From: Psychrilyobacter piezotolerans | GTDB taxonomy: Bacteria; Fusobacteriota; Fusobacteriia; Fusobacteriales; Fusobacteriaceae | NCBI RefSeq assembly: GCF_003391055.1 | Contig: NZ_QUAJ01000007.1 | Span: forward strand, 62,001 to 126,000 | Direction: 5' to 3' | DNA: 64,000 bases | Shown: piece by piece, positions 34,707-63,097 of the stretch | Layout: every line of letters starts with the position of its first letter | How positions within the stretch are numbered: position 1 is the first letter of the stretch | The notes under the pieces: model-generated | Seen by the model: only the letters and a program-made list of their open reading frames with translations | What the model was told of the DNA's origin: nothing | Databases searched by the model: none | Translations under genes and position numbers: made by a program

Positions 34707-34715
34707 AATCCTCCC

Positions 34716-37944: not shown

Positions 37945-37958
37945 TTGTTATACTCCTC

Positions 37959-38201: not shown

Positions 38202-38214
38202 CGAATCCTCCATC

Positions 38215-39135: not shown

Positions 39136-39151
39136 ATTTCTCTCCTCGACC

Positions 39152-39469: not shown

Positions 39470-39481
39470 ATATTTCCCTCC

Positions 39482-39500
39482 ATTTCGGAAGTTCCGAAAT
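39482..39500. repeat. 19-bp palindromic site B (perfect)
   Basis: ATTTCGGAAGTTCCGAAAT, a perfect palindrome around a central G, in the 58-base gap between traG and the next gene, immediately before the ribosome site. Confidence 0.7.
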
Positions 39501-39527
39501 TCATTTTTATTATTTATCTGTTTAAAT

Positions 39528-41426: not shown

Positions 41427-41465
41427 TCACTACCTCCAAGACATTTTTTCTAAGATCTCTATGAT

Positions 41466-42530: not shown

Positions 42531-42538
42531 ATAGCCTC

Positions 42539-43300: not shown

Positions 43301-43312
43301 ATTTAATCCTCC

Positions 43313-43984: not shown

Positions 43985-44005
43985 AATAATTCTCTACCTC
44001 CCTAT

Positions 44006-44347: not shown

Positions 44348-44368
44348 TATTACCTCCTAAAAAAAACG

Positions 44369-44426
44369 ATAAAAAAAAGCCTGCTAAAAGAAAGCAATAT
44401 TTAATTGCTTTTTCTAACAGACTTTG
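44369..44426 (-). terminator. Long imperfect hairpin with T-run upstream of trbC
   Basis: On the minus strand CAAAGTCTGTTAGAAAAAGC pairs with GCTTTCTTTTAGCAGGCTTT through several mismatches, then T8. It lies between the maintenance genes and trbC, so it separates the two units or acts as an attenuator controlling entry into the transfer operon. The gap 44427-44539 shows nothing else. Confidence 0.65.
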
Positions 44427-44539
44427 AGTCATTATGCTCACTATCTATTGTTATTTAAAAATTAATCTTACTTTTATAAATAAACCTTTAGGTTAATCCC
44501 TACTAATTTATTTAGATTTAATTTTTAAGTTGTTGGTTA

Positions 44540-44737
44540 CTAGTTATTAAGTGCTTTATTTTTTAAAATTTGTTCAAGATCACTGACATTAAATTTAAAA
44601 TCATATGTTATCTTTAAGCTGCATACGGAACCCTTTAGATCTAAGTTCATCCCCTTATAATTACTACTTAATTTGATTTCATTCTTTTGAATCTTTGACA
44701 ATAGTTCTCCTAAATATTCTTGATTTCTATCGGTCAT
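44540..44737 (-). CDS. Small hypothetical protein
   Basis: A 65-residue protein (starting MTDRNQEYLGELLSKIQKNE) of mixed helix and strand, with no signal or membrane segment. A strong GGGAGGGGG ribosome site precedes the ATG, and it follows the 219-residue gene by 27 bases in the same orientation, so it is likely real and co-transcribed with the parA block. Function unknown. Confidence 0.6.
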   Translation of the reverse strand: MTDRNQEYLGELLSKIQKNEIKLSSNYKGMNLDLKGSVCSLKITYDFKFNVSDLEQILKNKALNN

Positions 44738-44764
44738 AGTCCCCCTCCCTTATGGTAATGATAA

Positions 44765-45424
44765 TTAATTATTTTTCTTATCCAATTCGTTCTCTTTATT
44801 TTTTACTATTTGATTTATCTCTTTTAAATATTTTTCAATGATATCTATCTCACTTTTTATATTTTTTAGTTCTTTTGAATTTTTAACCTTTGTCAGGTTA
44901 TTTTTCATTTTTTCAAACTTTTTTAAATTTATATGTGTTTTAGGTTTATCATTAAATTCAAGAATACCTTGATCTTTCACAGATCTCAGTAGTTGTTTAA
45001 TGGTTTGGGCTTTAGTAATGTTTTCTTTAATGATCTTTTCTCTGGTGCTGTAAGTTACATCTTTATGGGTTAAGAGTTTTACCGCCTGGTTAGAAAGAGA
45101 AGAAATAAGATCCTTTTTTTCTTTAAATTCATTAAACAAAATAAACCTTTTGTTAAATTCTGAAATGTTATCTTTATTTAAACCATTGGCCTGATACCAT
45201 TTCATAAAATCTCCGGAGTTTTTAAATTTTAAAGATACCTGATTAAGCACTGTACAAATATCATATAGAGAATTACTTATAGCCATGAAGCTTTTCCTTA
45301 GTTTTTGCTCACTACTCTTTATAAATTCAATATCTTTTTCTTCAATTTCGTAACTTCCGAAATCAAAATTAGAAACATAGATATCCTTTTTTATTACTTC
45401 TTGTAGTTCTCCAAAGATATCCAC
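44765..45424 (-). CDS. ParA-linked protein, possible partition partner
   Basis: A 219-residue, mostly helical protein. Residues 35-90 (FMAISNSLYDICTVLNQVSL, then FKNSGDFMKWYQANGL) resemble the DUF3102-like pattern found in plasmid and phage proteins. The C-terminal third is a lysine-rich coiled coil. It starts in the base where parA ends, so the two are translationally coupled, as a ParA/ParB-type pair would be, but no ParB DNA-binding domain is recognised. The third 19-bp palindrome lies inside its 5' coding region (45345-45363). Confidence 0.6.
   Translation of the reverse strand: MDIFGELQEVIKKDIYVSNFDFGSYEIEEKDIEFIKSSEQKLRKSFMAISNSLYDICTVLNQVSLKFKNSGDFMKWYQANGLNKDNISEFNKRFILFNEFKEKKDLISSLSNQAVKLLTHKDVTYSTREKIIKENITKAQTIKQLLRSVKDQGILEFNDKPKTHINLKKFEKMKNNLTKVKNSKELKNIKSEIDIIEKYLKEINQIVKNKENELDKKNN
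45345..45363. repeat. 19-bp palindromic site C
   Basis: ATTTCGTAACTTCCGAAAT, inside the start of the ParA-linked gene. It shares ATTTCG and CTTCCGAAAT with site A. Confidence 0.55.
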
Positions 45425-46137
45425 TACATCACCCCCTTTACGATCTTTACGAAGGTAGATTGTATGGTTTTGTATTGAATACTTTTAGTTTCCATGATTG
45501 TTTTCCCTTTCTCTGTTAATTTCATAATTTTTGAAGATTGAAAGATTGGATCTAGAACTTGAATTCCTCCCTTATCTAAATTATCTTTAAGCATTTTTAG
45601 ATGTTCTTTTTCCATCTTACTTCTACCAACTCGATTAGGAACCACCATAGCTATTTTTTCAATACCAATTTCTTTAATTAGATTGACCATCCCTTTAGTA
45701 GTCACATTATCCAGAAATGTGGGAATAACCACTTTATCACTGACATCTAAAAATATATCATCTAGTTTCAGTACTGGAGACCCATCAATTAAGATATAAT
45801 CATATTGTTTTTTAAAAATTTCAATTAACTTTAAAAATTTATCTTCAAATGTAGATTTAATCCTTGTAGTAGTCAGTGGGATATAGAGTAACCCTTCCCG
45901 TAACCTCATGAGCTCTCCATGACCATCCTCAATATACCCCTCTAATCCCTTACCATACCCCGTATCAATACCTGCAAGCTGCAAGATATTGTTTTGAGAA
46001 TCTGATGTAAGAATTAACACCTTATTTTTCTTTCCATGAAGGTTTTCAAGGGAAGATAAAATATGTCCGGTCCAAAATGTAAGTAACGATTTTCCTACTC
46101 CACCCTTATTATTTTTAAATAGAATTACTTTTCCCAT
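45424..46137 (-). CDS. parA: ParA/MinD-family partition ATPase
   Basis: A 237-residue ATPase with the deviant Walker A KNNKGGVGKSLLTFW at residues 8-22, the switch strand YDYILIDGSPVLKLDD, and the PNRVGRSKMEKEHLKML segment common in plasmid ParA/Soj proteins. It is expected to segregate or maintain the excised circular element. It overlaps the rep-like gene upstream by one base and the helical partner gene downstream by one base, so the three are translated as a unit. Confidence 0.88.
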   Translation of the reverse strand: MGKVILFKNNKGGVGKSLLTFWTGHILSSLENLHGKKNKVLILTSDSQNNILQLAGIDTGYGKGLEGYIEDGHGELMRLREGLLYIPLTTTRIKSTFEDKFLKLIEIFKKQYDYILIDGSPVLKLDDIFLDVSDKVVIPTFLDNVTTKGMVNLIKEIGIEKIAMVVPNRVGRSKMEKEHLKMLKDNLDKGGIQVLDPIFQSSKIMKLTEKGKTIMETKSIQYKTIQSTFVKIVKGVM

Positions 46138-47138
46138 TAGACAATCACCTTCTCACTTTTTTTTTCATATAATACCTCTTGAGTTTTTAATTTATTATAT
46201 TTTTTGCAGAGCTGGTTCCCAAGATCATCATCTACACCTTGGCACTCATACCCAATATTTTTTAAAATTGAATTTCTCATAGATCTAATTTCAGATTCCC
46301 CTAGATTTTTAACCATGAAGGTTATTTTTTCTTTCCTAGTGATTTTCTTAAGATCTATCGACTCAACTATCCGATGATCTTTATCTTTTAAAATAGCTAC
46401 TAAAATTTTAGAGTTTAGAGGTTTATTCTTTGATTTCATAAATTCAATCACTTTTTCAACTTCGCCTACAGATCCCTTGGAATAATTTTTAATATTTTTT
46501 AGGGTTTGGGAGTTATAGTTTTTAAATCCATTTCTAACTATCAACTCTTTTATGGTTTTTAAAATAATTTCATCAGAAGCAGCAGCAGGATTTCCTTTTG
46601 TGCTACTACTATCTTTTTGTGGGAGTATATTTATGGGAGTATTATCAGACGACTTTTGAGACGGCGTAGAGGCTACTTTTGAGTCGAAACCACACGACTT
46701 TTGAGTCGGGTGCGGAGTTTGTTGACCTAGAAGACCCATCTTTTTTTTCATCTCTTCTATCTCATCTTCATTATCTTCTATCTTATTGAATTCAAACAAG
46801 GTATTGAACTTTTCCTCTAGAAATATAAAGTTATATGATCCATAAACTAAATTTTTATGAAGATGTCTTTTTATCAATCCAAGAGCTTCATATTTTTTTA
46901 ACCTTCTAGATAATACATCGTTTGAGTTTATCTTTAATGCTGGAAGATAGGTTAATAACTTTTGATAGTCAACCCACATATAATTATCCCCATCTACAGA
47001 TTTTTCAAGGATGGTTTTCCAAGTTTTCATATCTTTTAAATAAGAAATAATAAAAGCATCTTTTATATCCAAACCAAACTCTATAAGTTTATGTTGCTGG
47101 ACTTCTCCAATTGTATACTTTATATTATCTCTTTTCAT
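46137..47138 (-). CDS. Replication-initiator-like protein with winged-helix N-terminus
   Basis: A 333-residue protein. Residues 1-120 form a winged-helix domain (FIISYLKDM ... SNDVLSRRLKKYEALGLIKRHL), as in plasmid and phage replication initiators. A Pro/Ser/Thr-rich linker (about 140-180) follows and is encoded by three iterons (46650-46709). A helical C-terminal domain contains ILKTIKELIVRNGFKNYNSQ. The layout, with iterons inside the gene, recalls phage lambda O-type initiators. It starts just upstream of parA. It could also be a replication-linked transcription regulator. Confidence 0.65.
   Translation of the reverse strand: MKRDNIKYTIGEVQQHKLIEFGLDIKDAFIISYLKDMKTWKTILEKSVDGDNYMWVDYQKLLTYLPALKINSNDVLSRRLKKYEALGLIKRHLHKNLVYGSYNFIFLEEKFNTLFEFNKIEDNEDEIEEMKKKMGLLGQQTPHPTQKSCGFDSKVASTPSQKSSDNTPINILPQKDSSSTKGNPAAASDEIILKTIKELIVRNGFKNYNSQTLKNIKNYSKGSVGEVEKVIEFMKSKNKPLNSKILVAILKDKDHRIVESIDLKKITRKEKITFMVKNLGESEIRSMRNSILKNIGYECQGVDDDLGNQLCKKYNKLKTQEVLYEKKSEKVIV
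46650..46709. repeat. Three iterons within the rep-like gene, candidate origin
   Basis: Fifteen-base units at 46650-46664, 46673-46687 and 46695-46709 with consensus CGACTTTTGAGTCGG. They start 23 and 22 bases apart, about two helical turns, so they present the same face of the DNA. Each unit holds the inverted pair CGACT/AGTCG. They encode the linker of the initiator-like protein. Confidence 0.65.
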
Positions 47139-47989: not shown

Positions 47990-48093
47990 GTCCACATATG
48001 TTAACACTATAAATTTAACCTAAAAAGACACAAATGTCAACACATATTTTTCAATTAGTTCACATTTGTGACTTTATTGAGTAAAATTATAAT
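47990..48093. promoter_or_regulatory. Divergent CI/Cro operator-promoter region
   Basis: Three related sites, GTCCACATATGTTAAC (47990-48005), GACACAAATGTCAAC (48027-48041) and GTTCACATTTGTGAC (48058-48072), fit GTTnACATWTGTGnC. The minus-strand Cro promoter is TTGACA (48040-48035), 17 bases, TAAATT (48017-48012), overlapped by the second site. The plus-strand CI promoter is TTGTGA (48066-48071), 16 bases, TATAAT (48088-48093), overlapped by the third. Confidence 0.75.
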
Positions 48094-48112
48094 GAGAAAA
48101 GGAGGAGTTATT

Positions 48113-48811
48113 ATGTCAGAATTTGTGGTTAGCGAAGAAGGAAGAAAAAAGTTAGCAATTTATATAAAAACTTTAAGAGAAAAAAGAGAATTTGGATTAA
48201 ACCAATTAGCTATGAAAGCTGGGATACAAAAAACTATTCTCTCAAGAATTGAAGCGGGTAAAATTTTAAAAATAAATCCATTTTTCTTAAGACAATTAGC
48301 AGTGGCTTTAAGAATTGACTATAAAGAGTTATATAAAATAGTTGGATATTTAGAAGAAGAAGATTTTAAAGAGGAAATGGAAATTAAAGATAGTCAAGCT
48401 GAATATACAGGCGTTAAGGTCGTAGAACTCCCTGTATACGGGGTAGCTTCCACTGGAAAAGGATACCTTAATTTAGAGACCATTCTTAAATATAAAAAAG
48501 TTATAAATGATGGCTTTAGCTCCGATTCTTTTCTTGTAGAGGTAAATGGAGATTCCATGGCTACACTTATCAATGATGAAGATATAGTAGTAGTAGATCC
48601 ACAGTTAAATGATTATGTTGCTGGAAAAATATATGTAATAACTTATAATGACGAAACTTATATAAAACAAGTTCAGTGTCCTAAAAAAAATATAATAGTT
48701 TTAAAGAGTTTAAATTCCAATTATGAAGATAAATACATAATTGATGAAGAGATAAAACAGGTAAAGGTAGAAGGTAGGGTTGTGAAAGTAATTACTGAAA
48801 AGAAATTGTAA
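48113..48811 (+). CDS. CI-like repressor with S24 (LexA-type) autocleavage domain
   Basis: A 232-residue regulator. The N-terminal HTH (FGLNQLAMKAGIQKTILSRI) binds the operators just upstream; the C-terminal peptidase domain has catalytic Ser148 in GDSMATL and Lys185 in TYIKQ. Such repressors hold mobile elements silent and cleave themselves on RecA activation, so DNA damage should induce transfer or excision. ATG at 48113 with GGAGGAG upstream; earlier in-frame starts lie within the promoter. Confidence 0.88.
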   Translation: MSEFVVSEEGRKKLAIYIKTLREKREFGLNQLAMKAGIQKTILSRIEAGKILKINPFFLRQLAVALRIDYKELYKIVGYLEEEDFKEEMEIKDSQAEYTGVKVVELPVYGVASTGKGYLNLETILKYKKVINDGFSSDSFLVEVNGDSMATLINDEDIVVVDPQLNDYVAGKIYVITYNDETYIKQVQCPKKNIIVLKSLNSNYEDKYIIDEEIKQVKVEGRVVKVITEKKL

Positions 48812-49292: not shown

Positions 49293-50216
49293 ATGTTAGG
49301 AAAATTAGAAAAAGTTGAATTAAGAGATGTATGGAAACATGAAGCTATTGATTTTACCAAGTGGCTCGCAAAAGAGAAAAATATAGATCTTCTATCAGAT
49401 ACAATTGGAATAGATATAGAAGTGATAGAAACAGAGGCAAGTGTAGGTTCATTTAATGTAGATATATTAGCAAGGGATAGTAGTACAGATAGTAAGATAA
49501 TTATAGAAAATCAACTAGAAAGAACGGATCATGATCATCTAGGAAAGATAATCACCTATGCCTCAGGATATGATGCAGAGACTATTATATGGTTAGTTAA
49601 AGATGCGAAGGATGAACATAAAAAGGCGATAGAATGGTTAAATAATCATTTAGATGAGAAGATTAATATGTTTTTAATAAGAATAGAAGTTTGGAAAATA
49701 GGAGATTCACAACCTGCTCCAAGGTTTAGTGTTCTAGAAAGTCCAAACAATTGGGCTAAAGTTATTAAGAGCAGCTCTAATAGTGGGAAAAGAGAATTAA
49801 CAGATACCAAAAAGCTTCAACTAGAATTTTGGACAAACTTAAAAGAATATGGAGAAGATAATTATTCAAGTCTGAAGTTTCGAACTGTAAGATCTCAGAA
49901 TTGCTATAATCTTTCTGCTGGAAGTAGTTTATATTATATACTTTTAACTGAAAATTCTAAAACGAAACAATTGGGTGTTGGAATTTATATTTATCGGGAT
50001 AAAGATTGTTATCGTAATTTTTTTGAAAAAAAGAGAGAAATAGAAAAAGAATTGGAATTTAATTTAGAGTGGCAAGAACTCATTGATAAGAAAGCAAGCA
50101 AAATAATTATATATAAAGAATTTGATATTAAAAACAAAGAAAGTTGGGTAGAAGGATATAATTGGTTGTTGGATAAAGCTCAAAAAATGAAATTAGTTTT
50201 TGGTAAAAATAAGTAA
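49293..50216 (+). CDS. DUF4268 protein, PD-(D/E)XK-like nuclease fold
   Basis: A 307-residue soluble protein. The N-terminal half has a nuclease-like core: SFNVDILA with Asp57, then KIIIENQLE with Glu72 and Gln74 (an E-x-Q variant), followed by DHLGKIITYA, typical of DUF4268 proteins often found near defence and mobile genes. The C-terminal DUF4268 domain contains KLQLEFWTNLKEYGEDNYSS. Start supported by AGGAGG. It probably acts on DNA; substrate and partner are unknown. Confidence 0.75.
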   Translation: MLGKLEKVELRDVWKHEAIDFTKWLAKEKNIDLLSDTIGIDIEVIETEASVGSFNVDILARDSSTDSKIIIENQLERTDHDHLGKIITYASGYDAETIIWLVKDAKDEHKKAIEWLNNHLDEKINMFLIRIEVWKIGDSQPAPRFSVLESPNNWAKVIKSSSNSGKRELTDTKKLQLEFWTNLKEYGEDNYSSLKFRTVRSQNCYNLSAGSSLYYILLTENSKTKQLGVGIYIYRDKDCYRNFFEKKREIEKELEFNLEWQELIDKKASKIIIYKEFDIKNKESWVEGYNWLLDKAQKMKLVFGKNK

Positions 50217-51822: not shown

Positions 51823-52239
51823 ATGGATAATTTGACACCCGAGCAAAGAACAAAGAATATGAAAGCCATAAAATCGAAGGATACAAAGGCTGAAGTCATG
51901 CTGAGAAAAGCTCTTTGGAAAAAAGGATATAGATATTTTAAAAATTATAAAAAATTACCAGGAAAACCTGATATTGTTTTTTCAAAAAAGAAAACAGTTA
52001 TTTTTGTTGACGGAGAATTCTGGCACGGATTTGACTGGGAGAATAGAAAGCAAGATATTAAGAGCAATCGTGAATACTGGATTCCGAAGATAGAAAGAAA
52101 TATGCAGAGGGATAAGGAAATTCAAGGAAAATTAGAGGATGCAGGGTGGATTGTATTGAGGTTTTGGAGTAAAAATGTACTGAAAAACTTGGATGAGTGT
52201 GTAAAAAAAGTGGAGAAAATGCTGAATAAAAAGCTATAA
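51823..52239 (+). CDS. vsr: Very short patch repair endonuclease (Vsr)
   Basis: A 138-residue nuclease that nicks T:G mismatches produced when 5-methylcytosine deaminates. Signature TPEQRTKNMKAIKSKDTKAE at the N-terminus, GKPDIVF with metal-binding Asp50, then VIFVDGEFWHG and the C-terminal GWIVLRFW. It is the expected companion of the C5 cytosine methyltransferase at 54225, although here two genes separate them. Ribosome site AAGGA. Confidence 0.93.
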   Translation: MDNLTPEQRTKNMKAIKSKDTKAEVMLRKALWKKGYRYFKNYKKLPGKPDIVFSKKKTVIFVDGEFWHGFDWENRKQDIKSNREYWIPKIERNMQRDKEIQGKLEDAGWIVLRFWSKNVLKNLDECVKKVEKMLNKKL

Positions 52240-52398
52240 TTAAGCTTTTTCCTTGGACCTAAAAATAGAAAAGGAAATATTAAATTATATTTTAAAATTT
52301 AATATGCTGTCTAGCTATTCCCTATATTTTTAAGGGTTATAGTAATCCAAATACAATTTAAATTAACAGAAACAATATTAGCACTAGGAGGAGTTATT

Positions 52399-53709
52399 AT
52401 GGCGGATATTATTTGGAATAAATTTTTAAAGGAAGAAAAAGAAGAATATATTCAGTATTTGGAAATATTCGGGGCTTTAAGTGGTTTATTTAAAGATAAT
52501 AAAGAAGGGGCGAATGCCAGAAAGCCGTATTTATATTACAGAAATCATGAACAACTTTTTACTAGAATTTTTAGTGTAGATGATTTAGCTAGAAAAAATA
52601 GTGCTTTTGATGCACTTGGAACCTGGAAAAATGATAGAGTGGGAATTGGTCTTAAAACATGGATGCATACAAGAGACCATACATATCAAAAGGTAGCTGA
52701 GTTTAATAAATTAGCTCCAGACTTTATAGCACCACTAATAGAGAAGGGTACACCAGAGCAAGTTATAAAGAAGGTTTCAGAATTTAGAAATGAACGTATA
52801 ATGCTTGATAAACGTTTATATAAAACAGATAGAGATGTATATCATTACATCACTCGTGATGATGATATTATGAATATTGTAGAAGCACCGTATGATTTAA
52901 TAGATATTGACAGCCTTGAGCTTATTGACACTAATGGAAAAACCTATAATTTCAAAGATAAAAAAAATGAATATAAATTTTATAGAAGTAAGAGTGTATT
53001 ACAGAAAAAATTTGATGCTTCAAAAGGGGAAATAATAGCACAGATTAAAATCGAACAATTTGATGATCCTTTTGAGCTTATAAGAATGATTGAACTTCCT
53101 AAAAAAAATAAAGAAACTATATTTGAAGAAATATACCTTCCTCTTTATCAAGATAAAAAAGATGGAGGAATCGTCTCAGATTGCTCCGGTGTAAATATTC
53201 GACATGCAAAATCTAAGAATAAAGGAAGTAATACACCGCGTCCAGAGTATGAAATAGAAATTAGAATCAGCACTTGGATACATAGAGTTTTCCCAAAGTT
53301 TTTTGGTATAGATGCTTTTGATAGTGAGGCTGTTAAATTAAGTGACTTTGATTTGATTTTACCTGATGGAAGAGTATTGAGAGGAAGAATAAAGCAGCAA
53401 AACGGGAAAAGTTTACAAACCAATCCTCAAGGTGCACTTGGAGAATGGATACTTAATGATGTATTAGGTCTTAAAAATAGAGAAGTTGCAACTATGGAAC
53501 TACTAAATGAGCTCGGGATTGACAGTTTAAAGATAACTAAACTAGACAATGAACATTTTAAAATTACAGTTGCTGAAACAGGAGCTTATGAGAAGTTTAA
53601 ATTAGATAATATTGATAATATAGATAAAGCTGGACTTAAAGGCAATCAGAGACCTTATATAAGAGAAGACTTAGTGCAAGAGCTATTATCAGAAGATATT
53701 GAAGAATAA
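52399..53709 (+). CDS. Putative type II restriction endonuclease with B3-like DNA-binding C-domain
   Basis: A 436-residue protein. The C-terminal half (about 235-425) resembles the recognition domain of NgoFVII-like restriction enzymes: IYLPLYQDKKDGGIVSDCSG, RPEYEIEIRIS, then KQQNGKSLQTNPQGALGEWI. The N-terminal half contains SAFDALGTW followed by VGIGLKTW, which could be a PD-(D/E)XK core with an atypical acidic position. It sits with vsr, a small regulator-like gene and a C5 methyltransferase, the standard setting for a type II system. The DNA target is unknown. The 52240-52398 gap upstream shows only an AGGAGGAG ribosome site. Confidence 0.6.
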   Translation: MADIIWNKFLKEEKEEYIQYLEIFGALSGLFKDNKEGANARKPYLYYRNHEQLFTRIFSVDDLARKNSAFDALGTWKNDRVGIGLKTWMHTRDHTYQKVAEFNKLAPDFIAPLIEKGTPEQVIKKVSEFRNERIMLDKRLYKTDRDVYHYITRDDDIMNIVEAPYDLIDIDSLELIDTNGKTYNFKDKKNEYKFYRSKSVLQKKFDASKGEIIAQIKIEQFDDPFELIRMIELPKKNKETIFEEIYLPLYQDKKDGGIVSDCSGVNIRHAKSKNKGSNTPRPEYEIEIRISTWIHRVFPKFFGIDAFDSEAVKLSDFDLILPDGRVLRGRIKQQNGKSLQTNPQGALGEWILNDVLGLKNREVATMELLNELGIDSLKITKLDNEHFKITVAETGAYEKFKLDNIDNIDKAGLKGNQRPYIREDLVQELLSEDIEE

Positions 53710-53902
53710 TTACTATAAAAGAACTTTTTTTAGTTTTTTATGGTTATATAAAACTGGACCTTCAGTTTATATAAAATGTATGCATGAAGTTGGATATTTG
53801 GAAAAGTATCTCCTTCATATTTTTTATGACTTCCGATAAAATATTTAGTAATATATAGAGAAACTCAATAGTTTACTCCATACTACTTTTTATTTATTTA
53901 TT

Positions 53903-53931
53903 TTGATATTTATTTAATTTTATAATATAAT
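53903..53931 (+). promoter_or_regulatory. Promoter of the small regulator-like gene
   Basis: TTGATA (53903-53908), 17 bases, TATAAT (53926-53931), 48 bases before the ATG. The rest of the 53710-53979 gap is A/T-rich with a loose inverted repeat around 53740-53775; no gene seen. Confidence 0.55.
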
Positions 53932-53979
53932 ATAGATTATTTTCAAGAATTAAATCTATTATACCAAGATTGGAGGATT

Positions 53980-54171
53980 ATGAAAGGCGGAGCTAGAGAT
54001 GGTGCCGGAAGGCCTAAGAAATCTGATGAAGAAAAAGCAGAATATACTATAAAAAGTATAAAATTTAAGAAATGCGAAAAATATATTTTAGAATATATAG
54101 AGAGTTGTGAAGGAAAGAACTTTAGTGATAAATTGAAAAAAATAATATTAGAAAAAATTGAAAAAAAGTAA
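53980..54171 (+). CDS. Small basic protein, candidate R-M controller
   Basis: A 63-residue protein starting MKGGARDGAGRPKKSDEEKA. The GARxGAGRPK N-terminus is a known basic arm in small phage and plasmid DNA-binding proteins; the remainder (EYTIKSIKFKKCEKYILEYI) could form a ribbon-helix-helix. GGAGG stands six bases upstream. It lies 53 bases before the methyltransferase gene, with an inverted repeat around that gene's promoter, so it may act like a controller protein of restriction systems. This role is inferred from position. Confidence 0.6.
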   Translation: MKGGARDGAGRPKKSDEEKAEYTIKSIKFKKCEKYILEYIESCEGKNFSDKLKKIILEKIEKK

Positions 54172-54214
54172 TACCTTTTTTCGGTTAATATGATATAATA
54201 AAAGAATAAAGGTA
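54172..54214. promoter_or_regulatory. Methyltransferase promoter flanked by an inverted repeat
   Basis: TACCTTT (54172-54178) and AAAGGTA (54208-54214), extended to TACCTTTwTTC, flank an extended -10 box TGATATAAT (54191-54199). A protein bound to both arms would cover the promoter. Confidence 0.5.
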
Positions 54215-54224
54215 CGGTGATATT

Positions 54225-55748
54225 ATGAAATATAAAGTAGGAAGTTTGTTTGCGGGAGTTGGAGGAGTTTGTCTTGGTTTTAAAAGGGCCAGCGAACATT
54301 TTGAATTAACCTTTGCAAATGAAATGGATAAAGATGCATGTAAAACTTATAAAGCAAATTTCAATCATAGTTTGATAGAGGGAGATATTGAAAAAATACT
54401 CAATCCAGAGATTGTAAGGAAGGAAAGAGAATTTTTATTAGAGAGATCTGAAGAGCTTAAAAAAATTGGTGCAACTGAACTTGAGTTTGATATAAAAATA
54501 GTAAAAGATGCTGTGAAAAAGCTGGATAGCCCTTTCTTTGTTGCTAAAGCTATGAAAGGTGGATTTGAGCTGACAGACAGCATTCAAAAAAAAATAGTAA
54601 AAAATAATTATTCAGAAGAAAAATTTAAAGATTGTGTAGAATTACAATTAATCCTTAATAATTTAGTTAATTATACAGAAGATAAAACTGAGATAAAATA
54701 TCAAGAATTTAAAAAGAAAAATATAGAAATTACAAAAGAAAAAATAGATATTCTTACTGGTGGATTTCCATGCCAAGCTTTTTCTATAGCAGGAGATAGA
54801 AAAGGATTTTCTGACCATAGAGGAGAATTGTTTTACAGTGTAATTAATCTTGTAAACCAACTGGAAACAAAGGGACATGGCAAGCCGAGAGTTTTATTTC
54901 TTGAAAATGTAAAAAATCTTGTAAGCCATGAAAAAGGCCAGACTTTTAAAATTATCCAAGAAGAAATAGAAAAATTAGGTTATACAATAAAATATAAAGT
55001 TTTAAATACTTATAAATATACCGATCTTCCTCAAAACAGGGAAAGAATCTTTGTAATTTGTTTTTTAAATAAAGCTGATTCGGAAGCTTTCGGGTCATTT
55101 GAAGATATTCAAGTATCAGATAAAAGCAGGGAAGAATTAAAAGAAATAATGAGTAAAACATTGGATTATAGTATAACAAAAGAGAGTAATCCAGAATTTT
55201 ACTATACTAAAGAAAAATATCCAAATTATTTTATGACTCAAGAAGAATTTGAAAATAGTGACAGGAAAGAAAAAATTAATTTAAATGAAGATATGCAGGA
55301 TTTATATGAAATTTATCAAATTAGAAGAGGTATGTATGTCAGAAAAAATCAATCTGGAGTATGCCCAACATTAACAGCTAATATGGGAACAGGCGGGCAT
55401 AATGTACCTTTGATTAAAGTTTATGACGGCATAAGAAAGTTATCTCCTAAGGATTGTTTTAATCTCCAAGGATTTAGAATAGGTGAAAGTTATATATTAC
55501 CGAAAGAAGTAAAAAATGCATCTCTTTACAAGCAGTCTGGGAATGCTGTTTCAGTCGATGTAATAGAACTGATAGCTAAAAAAATAGAGCAGACTTTCAT
55601 TAAAAATAAGACTAAAGAGTCTATAGCAATGACTTTTTTAAAAGAAAAAGAAAAAGAAATAAACAAAATTATAAATAATAAAAAAACTGAAGAAGAAATT
55701 AAAAAATTTATTAAAAAATTAGCAAAAGAATGTTTTGACGTTTTATAA
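54225..55748 (+). CDS. DNA (cytosine-5) methyltransferase
   Basis: A 507-residue C5 methyltransferase. Motif I is GSLFAGVGGVCLGFKRA, the catalytic motif IV is GGFPCQAFS with Cys183, motif VI is FLENVKNL, motif VIII LPQNRERIFVICF, and motif X QSGNAVSV. An insertion of about 80 residues between motifs I and IV (residues 60-165) is longer than usual. It methylates a cytosine in an unknown target, protecting host DNA from the restriction enzyme at 52399 and perhaps licensing the MORC-Z1-nuclease-AIPR operon downstream. Confidence 0.95.
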   Translation: MKYKVGSLFAGVGGVCLGFKRASEHFELTFANEMDKDACKTYKANFNHSLIEGDIEKILNPEIVRKEREFLLERSEELKKIGATELEFDIKIVKDAVKKLDSPFFVAKAMKGGFELTDSIQKKIVKNNYSEEKFKDCVELQLILNNLVNYTEDKTEIKYQEFKKKNIEITKEKIDILTGGFPCQAFSIAGDRKGFSDHRGELFYSVINLVNQLETKGHGKPRVLFLENVKNLVSHEKGQTFKIIQEEIEKLGYTIKYKVLNTYKYTDLPQNRERIFVICFLNKADSEAFGSFEDIQVSDKSREELKEIMSKTLDYSITKESNPEFYYTKEKYPNYFMTQEEFENSDRKEKINLNEDMQDLYEIYQIRRGMYVRKNQSGVCPTLTANMGTGGHNVPLIKVYDGIRKLSPKDCFNLQGFRIGESYILPKEVKNASLYKQSGNAVSVDVIELIAKKIEQTFIKNKTKESIAMTFLKEKEKEINKIINNKKTEEEIKKFIKKLAKECFDVL

Positions 55749-55774: not shown

Positions 55775-55830
55775 AAAAAAAGATCTAGTAGAATAGCCGT
55801 ATATGGCTATTCTACTAGATCTTTTTTTAT
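55775..55830 (+). terminator. Very strong terminator, 18-bp perfect stem
   Basis: AGATCTAGTAGAATAGCC (55781-55798), six-base loop, exact complement (55805-55822), then T7, with an A-run in front. It insulates the methyltransferase from the next operon. Confidence 0.92.
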
Positions 55831-56064
55831 CTCTAGATTTGCCCGGAAAAGAGGGCGTCCAAAAAGCCTGCAAATAGAAAAACAGTTCCTATGATGATTT
55901 TAATACAATAAAAATTTATGTGTTTTTATTAATTTAAGTATAGGTTTATTAATAAATTTAATTTAAATGTAGTAATAAATGGAAATATAATGAGTTTTGT
56001 TGTATTATTTTATTAAATATAATCATTAAACGATAAAAGGTTTAAACCGAGGAGATAATAATTG
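55831..56064 (+). other. Leader/promoter region of the MORC-Z1 operon
   Basis: A/T-rich intergenic sequence with no gene. It must hold the operon's promoter; a candidate -10 is among several TATAAT-like strings near 55930-56030, but none has a clear -35. GAGGAG at 56049-56054 serves the first gene. Confidence 0.4.
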
Positions 56065-57480
56065 ATGAGAGAAGAAGTTGTAAAACCAAATCTAAGTAAT
56101 TTTATAAAATCTCTTAGAGATGTTGGATATAATTTTAATATTGCAATAGCTGATATATTAGATAATAGTATTGATGCTAATGCTAAAAATATAAAGATAA
56201 ATATAGAGTTAAAACCACAACCTAAAATTTTAATATTGGATAATGGTTTTGGAATGAATGAGGAAGAATTAGTAGAGGCTATGAGATTAGCTTCTAAAGA
56301 TCCAAATAAAAATAGGGGTGGAAAGGCCTTAGGTAAGTTTGGACTAGGATTAAAAACAGCCTCGTTTTCTCAAGGGAAAAAGCTAACAGTTATAAGTAAG
56401 AAAGGTAATAAAATAAATGCAAGGGTATGGGATTTAAATCATATAGAAGAAACAAATGAATGGTATTTATTAACCCCTCAATTAGATTATGATTCTACAG
56501 AATTTTATAATGAATTAACCTTACAAGAATCAGGAACTTTAGTAATTATAGAAGAGATTGATAGGTATGAAGAGGATGAATACGAAAATTTAATTTACTC
56601 TTTAAGAAATCACTTATCTATGACATTCCATAGATTCTTAGATAATAAAAATTCTAGAAGGAAAGTAAATATCTCTTTAAATAATAATCCTTTAGAATCT
56701 TTTGACCCATTTAATTCAGAAAACTTTGCAACACAAGATCTAGGAGAGGAAAAATTAAAAGTTTATGACGAAGATATAAAGATAAAACCATATATACTTC
56801 CTCATCATAGCAAAATTAGTCAGCAAGATTACGACAAATATGGAACTGAAGAGGGATATACTAAAACTCAAGGTTTTTATGTATATAGAGCTAACAGACT
56901 TTTAATCCATGGAACATGGTTAGGCTTACATAAAATATCTGATTCACATAAATTAGTTAGAATAATGATTGATATTCCTAATAATCAAGATAGTTATTGG
57001 GGAATTGATATAAAAAAATCTACTGCCAAACCCGTAAAAGCAATATCTAAAGAGTTAAAGAGAATAATTAAAAATGTCACAGCAAAGGGATCAAGGCCTT
57101 ATACTGGAAGAGGAAAAAGAATTACGGATAAAAATATAGAAAAATTTTGGGATTTAATACCAGATGGAGACAATATAAAGTTTGGATTGAAAAAAAAACA
57201 CCCTATATATTCAGAATTATTAAATACCTTTGATGAAAAACAAAAAAACTTATTTAATCTTTTTGTTAATGGTATTGAGTCTTATTTACCTTTACCACTT
57301 ATACAAGCTCATCTAAATGATAACCCACACAAGATAAAGCAGAAAAATAATGAAGAAATATCTGAAGCTATACAAAAATTAATAGATATGGGAGTATCCC
57401 CTGAATTGATTGAAGCTATTAAAAAGACAGAACTTAAAGGAGAAATGACTGATGTCCGCGAAAAAAATTCTGAAAAATAA
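56065..57480 (+). CDS. MORC-like GHKL ATPase
   Basis: A 471-residue protein whose first 200 residues form a GHKL (HSP90/MutL/histidine-kinase) ATP-binding fold: N box IADILDNSIDA near 29-39, G1 DNGFGMN near 59-65, and G2 GKFGLGLKTAS near 90-100. Bacterial members with this layout were proposed as ancestors of eukaryotic MORC ATPases and occur in restriction-type operons. ATP-driven dimerisation and DNA clamping is the likely role. The start is ATG 56065 (or TTG 56062). It overlaps the Z1 gene by 29 bases, implying tight coupling. Confidence 0.88.
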   Translation: MREEVVKPNLSNFIKSLRDVGYNFNIAIADILDNSIDANAKNIKINIELKPQPKILILDNGFGMNEEELVEAMRLASKDPNKNRGGKALGKFGLGLKTASFSQGKKLTVISKKGNKINARVWDLNHIEETNEWYLLTPQLDYDSTEFYNELTLQESGTLVIIEEIDRYEEDEYENLIYSLRNHLSMTFHRFLDNKNSRRKVNISLNNNPLESFDPFNSENFATQDLGEEKLKVYDEDIKIKPYILPHHSKISQQDYDKYGTEEGYTKTQGFYVYRANRLLIHGTWLGLHKISDSHKLVRIMIDIPNNQDSYWGIDIKKSTAKPVKAISKELKRIIKNVTAKGSRPYTGRGKRITDKNIEKFWDLIPDGDNIKFGLKKKHPIYSELLNTFDEKQKNLFNLFVNGIESYLPLPLIQAHLNDNPHKIKQKNNEEISEAIQKLIDMGVSPELIEAIKKTELKGEMTDVREKNSEK

Positions 57481-60118
57481 AATTGATAGTTTTTTAAAAG
57501 AAATCAAAGAAGAACTAACTGAGGAAATAATTGAAAACAAAGTAAATGAGGTTAAAGCTCAATTTACTAACCCAGTAATATTTCAAGCATTTCAAGCAAT
57601 GTCCACTGAATTAAAAAGAATAACTTTAGAAGATGTCTTAAAAGTTGATTTTAAAGAGATTCAAAACGAATTAGAGACAATCTATAGTGTTGTTGTAACA
57701 AATGGATTTAGCTTAGTTGAAGAAGATCCAAATAGAGATTCAACTTGGTGGACAGGGGCTGAAAAGCAAAAAAATGAATTGTTTTATTGGGAAAGATATA
57801 AAAGAAATTTAGAAAGAAAATTACCAATAAAAGTTGTTAGAAATTTAGATGAAGATACAGATATAGTTATGAATCATATAGAGAACCCTGAAGTTGATGG
57901 TTTCAATAGATTAGGGATGGTTATTGGACATGTACAATCTGGAAAAACTGGAAACTTTACAGGATTATTATGTAAAGCAGCAGATGCTGGATATAAATTT
58001 ATTATAGTTATTGCTGGTGGAATGAATAACTTAAGAAATCAAACCCAAGAAAGAATAGAAGAGGGGTTTATTGGATTAACTGGTTGTACTAAAGTTGGTG
58101 TTGGTTTAGATATAGAAAATAATACTAAAGATAAAAGACCTGTAGCTTTAACAAAAGAAAATGATGACTTTAATAGTAGAGATGCTAAAAAAGCAATATC
58201 TCTACATGATACTCATAAACCAATGGTTATGGTTATAAAGAAAAATAATAGTATCCTAAAAAATGTTATTAAATGGTTAAATGATGAATTCCCAAATGAA
58301 ATAACATATCCTTTATTAGTTATTGATGATGAGTCTGATTATGCATCAATAAATACAAACAAAGAAGATCAAGATCCAACTGCAATAAATAAGTCTATTA
58401 GAAAAATTCTTGGTAAATTTAAAAAGAGTAGTTATGTTGCCTATACTGCTACTCCATATGCAAATATTTTTATAGACCATAATATAGAAGGCGATTTATT
58501 TCCTAAAGATTTTATTTATTGTTTAGAAGCTCCTAGTAATTATTTTGGAGCCTCTAAAATTTTTAAAATAACTGAGGAAACTCAAGATAGGAAGCATATC
58601 ATAGAAATTGATGACAATGAAGTTGAGCTTCCTTTAAAACATAAAATAGACCATATAATTACTGAGTTACCAAGCTCATTAAAGCAAGCAGTTAGAAATT
58701 TTCTTTTAAACATTGGAATAAGGTGCTTAAGAGGAGACGAAACAGAACATAATAGTATGTTAGTTCATACAACAAGATTCACTAGAATTCATGAAGATAT
58801 TAGTAATCTTATAGAAGATTATTTAGAAAAAGGAAAAAAATCAATAAAATCATTTGGTGCAATGTCCAACAAATTAGAGCAAAGTAACTTTATAAGAGAT
58901 ATGAAAAAAACTTATGATGAAGTTTTCCCTGATATAGAGGAAAACTTTGATAACATATTAGAAGTTTTAACAAAAAAAGTTCAAGAAATAATGGTAAGAC
59001 AGGCACATCAAAAGGCTAAAATTCCTTTAGAATATAGAAATGATAGACCAACATATGCCATTGTAGTAGGGGGATTGAGTTTAGCTAGAGGATTTACTTT
59101 AGAAGGATTAAGTATCAGCTATTTTTTAAGAACCACTATGTTTTATGATACTTTAATGCAAATGGGAAGATGGTTTGGATATAGGATAGGTTATGAAGAC
59201 CTTTGTAAAATCTATATGACAGGAGAAATGGCTGATAATTTTGAATATATTATCAATGCTACAGAAGAATTAGTTGATACTCTCTCGGACATGAATGATA
59301 AGAAAAAAACACCAAAAGAGTTTGGTTTGGCAGTTAGAACCCATCCTGAAAGTGCTTTACAAGTAACTTCTTTAAATAAGCAAAGAAATGCTCAAGACTA
59401 TTATATTGACATGAGTTTTAACAATACCTTAAAGCAAACAACTCATTTAGTGAAAAATGAAAATGAGATAGATCATAATTATAAAGCTGTAGGAGAGATT
59501 TTAAATAAACTTCCTAATATAAGTGAAAATATTAAGAAAAAAAATAATTATGTCTTTAGAAACATTGACAAGAAGATTATTTATGATTTTATAGATGATT
59601 TTAAAGTTTTTAACTATAAAAATGACTATATTTTAAGTTTAAAAACTCATCTACCTGTTGCTTTCATGCTAAAAGATATTAAAGAAAATGATTTGAATTT
59701 TGATGTCGCTTTTATTTCTGGAGAAGGGGAACCAATTATTTCTACAGAGTTATCAAAATTAGAAAACCTTACTTATGCAAGAAGAAAACTGATGGAAACT
59801 GATGAAAATTCTTATAGAATAAAAATGTTATCAAATATTTCTACAGAAAAAATTGGATTAACAGATGAAGCCCTAACAATTATGAAGGAAAATAAAATTC
59901 CTAACAATTCTAGAAGAGAGATAAGAAAATTCTTAGAAAGACCATTATTATTTATTTATATAGTAGAGACTACAGAAAATTCCGACATTAGATTTCCAGC
60001 ATATGGAGTTGTATATCCAAATTCTAGTGAAAAAATAGAAAAATTTGTTAGATTAAAAATAAATAGTGTCTATTTAAAAGAATTATTAGAGGAAGAGGAG
60101 CTTCAAGATGAAGATTAA
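57452..60118 (+). CDS. Z1-domain superfamily II helicase-like protein
   Basis: An 888-residue protein. Walker A is the variant GHVQSGKTGNF near residues 159-169; Walker B-like LVIDDESDYASIN near 290; YTATPYANIF follows as motif III; VVGGLSLARGFTLEG and MGRWFGYR (near 571) form the second RecA domain motifs. The Z1 (PF10593-type) region links them. It should be a DNA translocase or remodeller driving the complex along invading DNA. It overlaps its neighbours on both sides (29 and 11 bases), so all four proteins are probably made in fixed ratio. Confidence 0.9.
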   Translation: MSAKKILKNKIDSFLKEIKEELTEEIIENKVNEVKAQFTNPVIFQAFQAMSTELKRITLEDVLKVDFKEIQNELETIYSVVVTNGFSLVEEDPNRDSTWWTGAEKQKNELFYWERYKRNLERKLPIKVVRNLDEDTDIVMNHIENPEVDGFNRLGMVIGHVQSGKTGNFTGLLCKAADAGYKFIIVIAGGMNNLRNQTQERIEEGFIGLTGCTKVGVGLDIENNTKDKRPVALTKENDDFNSRDAKKAISLHDTHKPMVMVIKKNNSILKNVIKWLNDEFPNEITYPLLVIDDESDYASINTNKEDQDPTAINKSIRKILGKFKKSSYVAYTATPYANIFIDHNIEGDLFPKDFIYCLEAPSNYFGASKIFKITEETQDRKHIIEIDDNEVELPLKHKIDHIITELPSSLKQAVRNFLLNIGIRCLRGDETEHNSMLVHTTRFTRIHEDISNLIEDYLEKGKKSIKSFGAMSNKLEQSNFIRDMKKTYDEVFPDIEENFDNILEVLTKKVQEIMVRQAHQKAKIPLEYRNDRPTYAIVVGGLSLARGFTLEGLSISYFLRTTMFYDTLMQMGRWFGYRIGYEDLCKIYMTGEMADNFEYIINATEELVDTLSDMNDKKKTPKEFGLAVRTHPESALQVTSLNKQRNAQDYYIDMSFNNTLKQTTHLVKNENEIDHNYKAVGEILNKLPNISENIKKKNNYVFRNIDKKIIYDFIDDFKVFNYKNDYILSLKTHLPVAFMLKDIKENDLNFDVAFISGEGEPIISTELSKLENLTYARRKLMETDENSYRIKMLSNISTEKIGLTDEALTIMKENKIPNNSRREIRKFLERPLLFIYIVETTENSDIRFPAYGVVYPNSSEKIEKFVRLKINSVYLKELLEEEELQDED

Positions 60119-61034
60119 TTTTTGGTGGGATAACCTTGAGAAAGACAGAAAAATCAGAATTCCGAGTAAAGTTGATGCCTTTGCATATATTACTAGAGAC
60201 GGATATATCTCTTTTCAATTAAAACTAGAAAAAAACATAGAAAAAAAAACTTATGACAACCTTAGATTTCAAAATATAGAAATAATTTCTTGTGGAAAAG
60301 AGTTATATTTTGTATTGAAAACAAGTGAATTTAAAGATGTTTTCTATTATTTATGTTTAGATTTATTGAAAAACTTAGAAGGTCAACCATTTAATAAGTA
60401 TACTAATATTATTTATAAAGTTTTTGATTATTGGAAAAAGCTTTTTAAAAAGAAGCAAAACAATATTTCAGAGATAATTCAAATGGGATTGTTTGCTGAG
60501 CTAAATTTTTTATGTAATGATAAATTAAAAAATCTATCTTTAAGTGAAAATATAAGTTCTTGGAGAGGTTTTAGTGGAGACATTCAAGATTTTCTTTATG
60601 AAAATACAAGTGTAGAAGTAAAATCAAAATTGAGCTCTAAAGCTAATGAAGTTACTATTTCTTCAGTAAATCAGCTTGAGCACATAAAAGAAAATTTATT
60701 TTTAGTTTGTTATTCTTTAGATAAAAATGAAAATGGAAAAACTATAGAAACATTAGTTGAAGAGATTTTAAGTTTAATAAGAAAAGAAAGCTTAGGGTTA
60801 GAGACTGCTTTCATAAAGGGATTATTAGAGTATGGTTATAATTGTTTTGATGATTACGATAACCTTGTCTCTTATCTTGTAGATGGGATAGAAACTTTTG
60901 AAGTTTTAGAAGGGTTTCCAAGAATTACCAACAAAGACATTCCTACAGGTGTTGTTAAAGTAGAGTATAAAATTAATTTAAATGTTTTAATTCCCTATGA
61001 AGAATGTAAATTAAAAGGAGTTAAGGAAATATGA
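60108..61034 (+). CDS. PD-(D/E)XK motif nuclease (DUF4420-type)
   Basis: A 308-residue protein. The nuclease core is around residues 150-185: SGDIQDFLYENTSVEVKSKL, with an Asp in GDIQDF and Glu170/Lys172 in the EVK, followed by SSVNQLEH. The N-terminal part (INFWWDNL ... PSKVDAFAYITRDG) matches the family's usual start. It is the probable DNA-cutting subunit of the operon. It overlaps the Z1 gene by 11 bases and the AIPR gene by 4 (ATGA). Confidence 0.85.
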   Translation: MKINFWWDNLEKDRKIRIPSKVDAFAYITRDGYISFQLKLEKNIEKKTYDNLRFQNIEIISCGKELYFVLKTSEFKDVFYYLCLDLLKNLEGQPFNKYTNIIYKVFDYWKKLFKKKQNNISEIIQMGLFAELNFLCNDKLKNLSLSENISSWRGFSGDIQDFLYENTSVEVKSKLSSKANEVTISSVNQLEHIKENLFLVCYSLDKNENGKTIETLVEEILSLIRKESLGLETAFIKGLLEYGYNCFDDYDNLVSYLVDGIETFEVLEGFPRITNKDIPTGVVKVEYKINLNVLIPYEECKLKGVKEI

Positions 61035-63097
61035 GTATAAAAATAGAAGATTTCCATGAAAATTTTGTACAACTTTATTTAAGAGATGCTGAAGCAAGAG
61101 GGTTATTAATTTCAGAAGCATTCTTCGATAAAATTTGTAATAACTTAGCTGAGGATGGAGAGTTAAATGATAATTTTCTTTTCGGACCATTTTTCAAAAT
61201 AGGAATAGAAATTAGTGGTTATTCTTATGATGAAGAAAAAGAAACTTTAATCCTGATTAATCAAGAAATCTATCAAAATGAAGAAAAAATTGAAACTTTG
61301 ACCAAGCAAAATCTTGAAGCAAAGTTTAGGAGAACTGAAACTTATTTTAAAAAATCTTTAGTAGGTTTTTCTAACTATTTAGAACAAACATCTGATAGTT
61401 ATAAAGTTGCTTATGAAATTGAAACTTTACTAAAGCAAAATAAAGTAACAAAGGTAAAAATTTATCTTTTAACAGATGGACTATTAACAAATACCATAAA
61501 GGATATTCCAAATAAAAATATTGAAGGATTTGATTTTGAATATAGAATCATAGATATAAATTATCTATTTAATATTGAAATGGTTAACTATCAAGATGAG
61601 AGTTTTAATGTTGATGTTGATCTACCTTGTTTAGAAGCTTCAACAATAGATAGTGAATATGAGTCATATTTAGCAGTATTTCCAGGTCAAGAAATTGCAA
61701 GGATATATGATGATTTTGGAAGCCGTTTGTTAGAACAAAATGTTAGAACTTTTTTACAATTTAGAGGAAAAGTTAATAAAGGTTTGAGAACTACAATTTC
61801 TAAAGCCCCGGAAAAATTTTTTGCATATAATAATGGAATTACAACAACGGCTAGTAGAGTAGAATTTAATAATAAGGGTAATATTTCAAAAATTTATGAT
61901 TTCCAAATTGTAAATGGAGGACAAACTACATCTTCAATTTATTCAGCTTGGAAAAAGGATAAATTAGATTTAAGTAAAGTCTTTGTACAAATGAAGCTGT
62001 CTGTTGTTGCAAATATATCTCAACATAGTGAGTTTGTATCTAATGTTGCAAGATATGCTAATACACAAAATAAAGTAAACAACTCTGATTTTTTCTCCAA
62101 TAGTCCATTCCATAAAGAGATGAAGAACCATTCAAAATTGATAGCAGCTCCAGTTTTAAATGGAGGACAAAAGAAAACATATTGGTTCTATGAAAGAGTT
62201 CGTGGAGAATATTTAAACGAACAGGCTTATTTAACAGCTTCTAAAAAGAGCAGTTTTCAACAAAGACACCCTAAAACTCAATTAATAGATAAAACTCTTT
62301 TAGGAAAAGGTGAGATGGCATGGAAACAAAAACCATATATTGTTTCAAAGGGAGCTCAATATTGCTTTTTAAATTTTGCCGATACAATCACTAATCAATT
62401 AGAGAAAGATTCAATGAGTATAACAGAAAATTATTTTAAAGAAGCTATTGCTAAGATTATTATCTTTAGACATTTAGAGAAAAGAATTAGTAAAGCTCCT
62501 TGGTATAACGGTGGATATAGAGCTCAAATTGTAGCTTATACCCTTGCTTATCTATCAAAAGATGTAGAAGAAAAGAGAAAATTTTTTAATTTTAATGAAA
62601 TTTGGAAAGCTCAAGGAGTCTATGATGATTTTGACAATTTATTAATGAAAATTGCAAAAAAATTATATCCAGTTTTATTAGCTGGAGCCTCAGGAAATGC
62701 TAATATTGGATCTTGGTCTAAAAAGGAAGATTGTTGGAGAAAATTAAAAAAAGTAGAAATAGATTTGGTTTACCCAGAAGAGTTATTAAAAAATAAAGAT
62801 ACAGTTAAGCAAGAAAAAAGAAAGCAAAAAGTAGAAAAGAAATTAATGAGCGGTATCGAAGCTCAAATATTTGTTGTAGAATATACTAAATGGAATGAAA
62901 TATTAGAATATTTACTTAAATATCAAGGTGATTTTAAAGTAACGGAAAAACAGATGAGTATTTTAAAAAGAGTTAGTAAAGGTGAATTCCCTTCAGCAGC
63001 TCAAAGTAAATTACTTTATGAAGTTTATAATATGTCAGTAGAAGAAGGTATTGTAGATAAGGAAGAAGACCTTATCCTTAAAGGAAAAACAAATTAA
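61031..63097 (+). CDS. AIPR family (abortive infection) protein
   Basis: A 688-residue protein. The AIPR region (about 220-540) includes KAPEKFFAYNNGITTTASR, the central VNGGQTTSSIY near 293-303, and YANTQNKVNNSDFFSN, all typical of phage-resistance AIPR proteins. The molecular activity of the family is not settled; its name comes from an abortive-infection protein. It is the last gene of the four-gene operon. No clear terminator follows; the next 40 bases run into an IS-end-like sequence. Confidence 0.88.
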   Translation: MSIKIEDFHENFVQLYLRDAEARGLLISEAFFDKICNNLAEDGELNDNFLFGPFFKIGIEISGYSYDEEKETLILINQEIYQNEEKIETLTKQNLEAKFRRTETYFKKSLVGFSNYLEQTSDSYKVAYEIETLLKQNKVTKVKIYLLTDGLLTNTIKDIPNKNIEGFDFEYRIIDINYLFNIEMVNYQDESFNVDVDLPCLEASTIDSEYESYLAVFPGQEIARIYDDFGSRLLEQNVRTFLQFRGKVNKGLRTTISKAPEKFFAYNNGITTTASRVEFNNKGNISKIYDFQIVNGGQTTSSIYSAWKKDKLDLSKVFVQMKLSVVANISQHSEFVSNVARYANTQNKVNNSDFFSNSPFHKEMKNHSKLIAAPVLNGGQKKTYWFYERVRGEYLNEQAYLTASKKSSFQQRHPKTQLIDKTLLGKGEMAWKQKPYIVSKGAQYCFLNFADTITNQLEKDSMSITENYFKEAIAKIIIFRHLEKRISKAPWYNGGYRAQIVAYTLAYLSKDVEEKRKFFNFNEIWKAQGVYDDFDNLLMKIAKKLYPVLLAGASGNANIGSWSKKEDCWRKLKKVEIDLVYPEELLKNKDTVKQEKRKQKVEKKLMSGIEAQIFVVEYTKWNEILEYLLKYQGDFKVTEKQMSILKRVSKGEFPSAAQSKLLYEVYNMSVEEGIVDKEEDLILKGKTN

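Follow-up and report, generated by a model that had tools for sequence, protein, structure and literature searches.

A MORC-Z1-DUF4420-AIPR operon of Psychrilyobacter piezotolerans beside an NgoFVII-type restriction cassette, and the exchangeable C5-cytosine methyltransferase of its relatives

The stretch of DNA analysed here (the window) comprises 64,000 nucleotides of the Psychrilyobacter piezotolerans contig NZ_QUAJ01000007.1, positions 62,001 to 126,000, and carries an operon of four genes for a MORC ATPase, a Z1 ATPase, a DUF4420 nuclease and an AIPR protein. Sequence comparison indicates that the locus is a new member, lacking MzaA, of an already described operon type, combined here with an NgoFVII-type restriction cassette. 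A C5-cytosine DNA methyltransferase (MTase) accompanies the four-gene module in every relative with enough flanking sequence for its presence to be judged, and it has been exchanged repeatedly, while the four module proteins evolve as one unit. The operon consists of the following genes:

56062..57480, plus strand: MzaB-like prokaryotic MORC (GHKL-S5) ATPase, 471-472 amino acids (Pfam HATPase_c_3, PADLOC MzaB)
57452..60118, plus strand: MzaC-like Z1 superfamily 2 (SF2) ATPase/translocase, 888 amino acids (Pfam Z1, PADLOC MzaC)
60108..61034, plus strand: MzaD-like DUF4420 PD-(D/E)XK nuclease, 308 amino acids (Pfam DUF4420, PADLOC MzaD)
61031..63097, plus strand: MzaE-like AIPR protein, 688 amino acids (Pfam AIPR and AIPR_N, PADLOC MzaE)

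The MORC gene starts at TTG 56062 or ATG 56065, with a sequence resembling a ribosome-binding site (AGGAGA) at about 56049. The coordinates of the open reading frames (ORFs) confirm the four genes and the overlaps of 29 (MORC/Z1), 11 (Z1/DUF4420) and 4 bases (DUF4420/AIPR) given in a preliminary description of this DNA, and its family assignments are borne out by Pfam matches far beyond chance (E-values of 9.7e-38 for HATPase_c_3, 6.2e-73 for Z1, 1.7e-55 for DUF4420, 2.4e-97 for AIPR and 1.2e-33 for AIPR_N). The PADLOC profiles score 247 (MzaB), 412 (MzaC), 57 (MzaD) and 224 bits (MzaE), and the Z1 protein additionally matches Helicase_II with 146 bits. The NCBIfam names are likewise MzaB to MzaE, with 288, 504, 88 and 287 bits, all far below the respective equivalog cut-offs of 850, 1500, 420 and 1050. 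No ORF for the sigma-like MzaA was called in the operon; a sigma gene far off in the genome was not sought. A search of this genome found a single Z1 gene, and a Z1 match was present in 2 of the 61 genomes of the family, this one counted, as is expected of a mobile system.

The diagnostic motifs of the first three proteins are strongly conserved. The MORC S5 motif GFYVYRANRLL lies at residues 271-281, its G, Y, Y, R and R being invariant in 71 sequences, and the best PDB matches of the protein are human MORC3 and MORC4, MORC3 first. The motif-I Asn is invariant as well (N34 counted from ATG, N35 from TTG). In MutL and MORC3 a catalytic Glu stands four residues before this Asn; here the corresponding residue is Asp31 (counted from TTG), and all 70 readable relatives likewise have Asp. 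The Z1 protein has a Walker A motif (GHVQSGKT, 159-166), IDDE (291-294) and QMGRWFGYR (570-578), which are nearly invariant in relatives, and the DUF4420 nuclease site D161, E170 and K172 together with Q189 is invariant in 65 sequences. Among the module proteins, DUF4420 alone has a nuclease site that is invariant. The catalytic motifs had all been taken for intact, which is accurate for the nuclease triad, the Z1 motifs and the MORC Asn but not for the MORC position where Asp replaces Glu.

Relatives were sampled through an alignment of Z1, which gave 80 loci from genomes and 21 from viral contigs, to which plasmid loci were added; the module partners were then located by iterated profiles of the window genes, yielding 93 complete modules. 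Gene order is constant in the relatives, and the reading frames overlap in 79 (MORC/Z1), 89 (Z1/DUF4420) and 66 (DUF4420/AIPR) of the 93. Automated gene picking found a C5 MTase no more than 6 kb away from 87 of the 93 complete modules. When only modules with at least 5 kb of sequence on both sides are considered, the count is 56 of 56, with 55 picked automatically. The remaining one, L067, had seemed to lack the gene; its MTase is intact and was missed since the MORC ORF had been called too long. The other five modules without an MTase sit close to a contig end, which is at most about 2 kb away on one side or both. The linked MTase may stand upstream or downstream and be co-directional or opposed, and a Vsr gene occurs within 6 kb in 56 of 93 relatives. 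A crude motif scan revealed no adenine or N4 MTase near the 93 modules. Apart from small clusters, partly of recombinases, no additional gene family is found widely next to the module, and recognised restriction endonucleases (REases) are few: that of this locus, L008, L009 (methyl-directed type), L018, L022 and a few weak matches. As REases are so few and no further family recurs widely, DUF4420 appears to be the only evident nuclease in most relatives. The preliminary description had noted that the operon is next to a methylase; the link to cytosine methylation that it drew is real, and the aligned loci point to a rule in place of that loose remark, namely that a C5 MTase is always there in testable loci and is exchangeable.

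Pairwise distances of the four module proteins correlate closely with one another (r 0.83-0.91), consistent with their evolving as one unit, and those of the MTase correlate far less with the module (r 0.28-0.37 over 45 loci; 0.44 with Z1 over 71 loci), as do those of Vsr (r about 0.3). MTases were grouped into types by clustering above 40% identity, and the 12 types were mapped on the Z1 tree. The mapping required 19 changes, compared with a minimum of 11 and with 28.6 for shuffled labels, a pattern showing that the MTase is inherited with the module for stretches, yet has been repeatedly exchanged. A scan in 60-column windows, with overall relatedness removed, found no module segment that tracks the MTase (partial r at most 0.25), and exchange in the absence of a co-varying segment does not favour a simple matched sequence specificity. 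No docking insertion or extra domain shared across the linked MTases was seen; insertions sit at different places, the window MTase having one of about 115 amino acids between motifs I and IV and the MTase of L007 a large one between motifs VI and VIII.

Other gene combinations were noted during the survey. On a Helicobacter plasmid (L006) Z1 stands alone beside a HaeIII-family REase and a C5 MTase, and on a Priestia plasmid (L011) Z1 and DUF4420 lie beside an AlwI-family REase and a C5 MTase, both loci being without MORC or AIPR. A Bacillus locus (L023) has two tandem MORC-Z1-DUF4420-AIPR modules with one C5 MTase in between.

In the window, the MTase lies upstream of the operon together with other restriction genes and is parted from it by a hairpin:

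51823..52239, plus strand: Vsr mismatch endonuclease, 138 amino acids (TIGR00632, above cut-off)
52399..53709, plus strand: NgoFVII-family Type II REase with a B3-like C-terminal DNA-binding domain, 436 amino acids (PADLOC REase_II, 414 bits; Pfam RE_NgoFVII_C)
54225..55748, plus strand: C5-cytosine DNA methyltransferase, 507 amino acids (Pfam DNA_methylase)
55778..55825, no strand assigned: 20-bp perfect inverted repeat with T-tracts on both strands (terminator scan, sequence)

By gene content, Vsr, REase and MTase make up a complete NgoFVII-type restriction cassette (51823-55748). The preliminary description was right about a C5 MTase, present at 54225-55748, and left the upstream Vsr (51823) and Type II REase (52399) unmentioned. 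A search of the genome found no other C5 MTase. The REase homologues share 32-35% identity over about 90% of the length and are annotated as NgoFVII or PLD family; the PLD annotation is found only in these homologues, and Pfam recognised no PLD active site in the window REase. They occur on plasmids of Finegoldia, Lactobacillus, Priestia and Caldicellulosiruptor, with a C5 MTase adjoining and Vsr in two of them, and neither Z1 nor MORC is annotated beside them in the stretch read. No relatives of the REase were found among viral contigs. Among all collected loci, the closest relatives of the window MTase are four MTases from these plasmid cassettes and that of L018 (43-47% identity); L018 also carries a homologue of the window REase, the sole such locus among the surveyed module relatives. 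The next relative, in L071 (41%), is without such a REase, and the others are at 33% or less. Because its nearest relatives sit in such cassettes, most of them without MORC, the window MTase is by descent mainly part of a self-sufficient NgoFVII-type restriction cassette. The inverted repeat is likely a bidirectional terminator parting MTase and MORC transcription. A mobile repeat between the two genes was considered and rejected, as only the inverted repeat itself was found there, with no second copy in the genome.

Operon and cassette together are apparently the cargo of an integrative conjugative element, because the region is framed by a tRNA-Arg with a directly adjoining integrase-like ORF (window 29987-31206), VirB/TrbC-type transfer genes and ParA (window 33702-47138), a repressor of the S24 type, a MobA/MobL relaxase downstream of the window (L003 959-3463) and ArdC. 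No repeat of the tRNA end that would mark the right end of the element was found on this contig. The repressor (48068-48811; helix-turn-helix and Peptidase S24, LexA/CI-like) is located where the coding strand changes, with the transfer genes on one side and the defence cargo on the other, and could couple transfer of the element to DNA damage. Upstream of the Vsr-REase-MTase cassette, at 49293-50216, a DUF4268 protein is encoded, possibly further nuclease-like cargo. The ArdC anti-restriction protein (ArdcN and zincin domain; L003 4151-5113) is encoded a few kb from the restriction cassette and the module, so the same element bears both restriction and anti-restriction genes.

The AIPR protein, to which the preliminary description assigned no role of its own, was modelled at full length (pLDDT 89.8) and its central domain alone (pLDDT 84.3). 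A PDB-chain sequence search with AIPR, Z1 and the REase gave no match. In the models AIPR is composed of a degenerate nuclease-like domain (1-189), a ParB/Srx-like domain (about 203-355) and a helical C-terminus. The first of these is an alpha/beta domain resembling restriction nucleases (Z 9.7 for AF1548, 9.4 for AspBHI, 9.0 for FokI and 8.6 for MspJI); it contains no (D/E)xK motif, and in the window protein even the otherwise common D62 and D79 are replaced by S and E. A HEPN RNase was proposed earlier for the AIPR N-terminus (PMC3506569), and this alpha/beta model with its nuclease-like matches speaks against an all-helical HEPN fold. For the central domain, all 15 listed entries with Z of at least 2 are ParB, PadC, Noc, KorB, Srx or Osa, the best at Z 6.6 with a root-mean-square deviation of 3.2 over 97 aligned residues; the values stay below Z 8, and the Foldseek E-value is 0.07 at best. 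Foldseek found nothing significant with full-length AIPR and weak, non-significant ParB matches with the domain model, and the fold call depends on VIA re-ranking of Foldseek's own match list. The models thus suggest a ParB/Srx-fold domain in AIPR, an assignment that is likely, not proven. The strictest motifs of the central domain are EQNVR (235-239), NGGQTT (295-300) and ANxQN (about 343-347). Their order recalls what we take to be the conserved boxes of ParB, and their conservation suggests a putative nucleoside triphosphate (NTP) site. Published in 2025, a survey of the ParB-CTPase fold reports proteins that bind CTP, ATP or GTP, a DndB-like one among them; AIPR is absent from its main text.

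Several known systems resemble the locus. Iyer, Abhiman and Aravind (2008; PMC2292703) described a third MORC operon type that includes Dcm, Vsr and AIPR, and for which a looping model was put forward as a proposal. The window locus is of this type and shares with it the MORC motif GhXhhpXXRhl, an SF2 helicase motif of the DThhQXuRhFG type, a RE-fold protein, Dcm and Vsr, with AIPR noted there too, and no clear difference in gene content was found. The putative 'type II' system of Miller 2022 (PMC9523054) has Z1, DUF4420 (printed DUF4220) and a C5 MTase as its core, with AIPR and MORC, and resembles mzaABCDE, which is called validated there, at about 20% identity. Judged by gene set, the window locus belongs to this system as well; it also agrees in MTase type and in the lack of mzaA, which is mostly absent there, and differs in that its MTase comes from a full NgoFVII-type REase/Vsr cassette. 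MZA proper (mzaABCDE; MutL/MORC-Z1-DUF-AIPR) is represented in the window by homologues of MzaB to MzaE, which agree with it in order and overlap. However, the operon has no MzaA, its scores of 88-504 bits compare with NCBIfam cut-offs of 420-1500, and the sigma-bearing relatives with a placed Z1 (L008, L009 and L106) form one strongly supported clade, to which the window does not belong; L036 also gave a sigma profile match, which probably has no relation to these. In CglI and NgoAVII (PMC4267653) a C5 MTase is joined by a PLD-B3 R-protein and by an N-protein of the DEAD-Z1 kind, a Z1-bearing SF2 ATPase that hydrolyses ATP only with the R-protein on unmethylated sites. These systems share with the window a C5 MTase, a Z1-bearing SF2 ATPase and, at this locus, a REase with a B3-like domain, but have no MORC, DUF4420 or AIPR. 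In the GHKL-Shedu protein VcSduA (PMC12137116), the GHKL mutation E27A or the nuclease mutation K557A abolishes activity. The likeness lies in a GHKL ATPase that presumably controls a PD-(D/E)XK nuclease as part of anti-phage defence, although VcSduA is a single fused protein with a DUF4263 nuclease and is not accompanied by Z1 or AIPR. The open literature searched yielded no mechanism for this family, which is named and widespread. The preliminary description had rightly traced the family set to Iyer et al., and its interpretation holds for the families and the methylation link; its idea that unmodified DNA is recognised and the nuclease then activated is a conjecture, it overlooked the MTase's own REase, and its claim of a little-described system falls, as PADLOC and NCBIfam name the families MzaB-E and Miller 2022 describes the gene set.

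On balance, we lean, if not strongly, towards NTP-driven restriction by a multi-subunit module of the MZA type, with linked 5-methylcytosine (5mC) as the self mark, a function whose individual steps we infer throughout. The reading is based on the biochemistry of CglI/NgoAVII, the closest available, and on the constant C5 MTase. The MTase would mark host DNA with 5mC, MORC would dimerise on DNA as an ATP-driven clamp and the Z1 motor would translocate, a role already proposed for the Z1-bearing N-proteins in CglI/NgoAVII. Given its ParB/Srx-type domain, AIPR may act as a nucleotide-gated DNA-binding or licensing subunit, in effect a nucleotide switch, and DUF4420 would be the cutter. Because the exchanged MTases belong to different families and are not tracked by any part of the module, we think that the module would sense 5mC or its absence generically, or via the MTase protein, with no matched recognition domain of its own. 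A bolder form of this idea, which we offer tentatively and regard as rather doubtful, is that the module is a universal restriction engine without a recognition sequence, for which any C5 MTase sets the rule of self and non-self (through generic 5mC or as a recognition subunit), and in which AIPR is a ParB-type nucleotide-switched clamp beside the MORC clamp.

Several points weigh against restriction with 5mC as the self mark. At this locus the MTase is accounted for by its own REase and need not serve the module, and no module segment tracks the MTase. MTases of different families could have the same target site, in which case their exchange would be uninformative, and some linked REases may be too divergent to recognise, as REases diverge fast. 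The MORC family, as aligned, has Asp at the usual catalytic Glu position, and the support for this lineage comes from sequence and models.

The strongest competitor, a genuine possibility that we nevertheless consider less probable, is a methylation-independent sensor or abortive module, in which MORC, Z1 and AIPR would detect phage replication structures or DNA ends, restriction ends included, and DUF4420 or AIPR would then degrade DNA or kill the cell; MTase and Vsr would be present as such modules settle in C5 restriction-modification islands or back up a REase. The repeated exchange of MTases, the widely varying side and orientation of the MTase, the complete REase-MTase-Vsr cassette adjoining the module here and the terminator-like hairpin parting the MTase from it all agree with such a role, as does the validation of mzaABCDE as five genes, sigma factor included, with no MTase among them (Miller 2022, PMC9523054). 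However, a C5 MTase at 56 of 56 testable loci, with no adenine MTase seen and REases mostly missing, speaks against it; a general backup role in particular predicts mixed MTase types and the presence of REases. Very unlikely, in our judgement, is a CglI/NgoAVII-like assembly of MTase, REase and Z1, in which Z1 would be the N-protein of the adjacent NgoFVII-type REase and MORC, DUF4420 and AIPR would be accessory. The three-part composition of CglI/NgoAVII, the B3-like C-terminus of the window REase and the Helicase_II match of Z1 are in its favour, but the nearest REase relatives lie in MTase(+Vsr) cassettes with no Z1 in the stretch read and appear to work without it, and a homologous REase accompanies just L018 among the surveyed module relatives, so that dependence of the window REase on the Z1 protein is doubtful. 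Least likely of all is a Type IV-like attack on phage DNA with modified cytosine (e.g., hydroxymethylated or glucosylated), host 5mC being tolerated: ParB/Srx-type domains do occur with restriction nucleases in GmrSD-like modification-dependent systems according to the literature, and AspBHI and MspJI, both modification-dependent, are among the enzymes with a fold like that of the AIPR N-terminus, but no modification-reader domain was recognised, a constant host C5 MTase would be superfluous, and fold similarity is uninformative on the ligand.

What is added to prior knowledge is quantitative, in the constant yet exchanged MTase and the locked quartet, and structural, in AIPR. As modelled, the reading of AIPR as a degenerate nuclease-like domain joined to a ParB/Srx domain, not HEPN, is a new structural hypothesis, and a concrete one for proteins so far annotated only as abortive infection proteins. 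If the specificity of the module is borrowed from the MTase, the system would represent restriction of a modular kind, and the action of MORC proteins together with cytosine methylation would have a precedent in prokaryotes.

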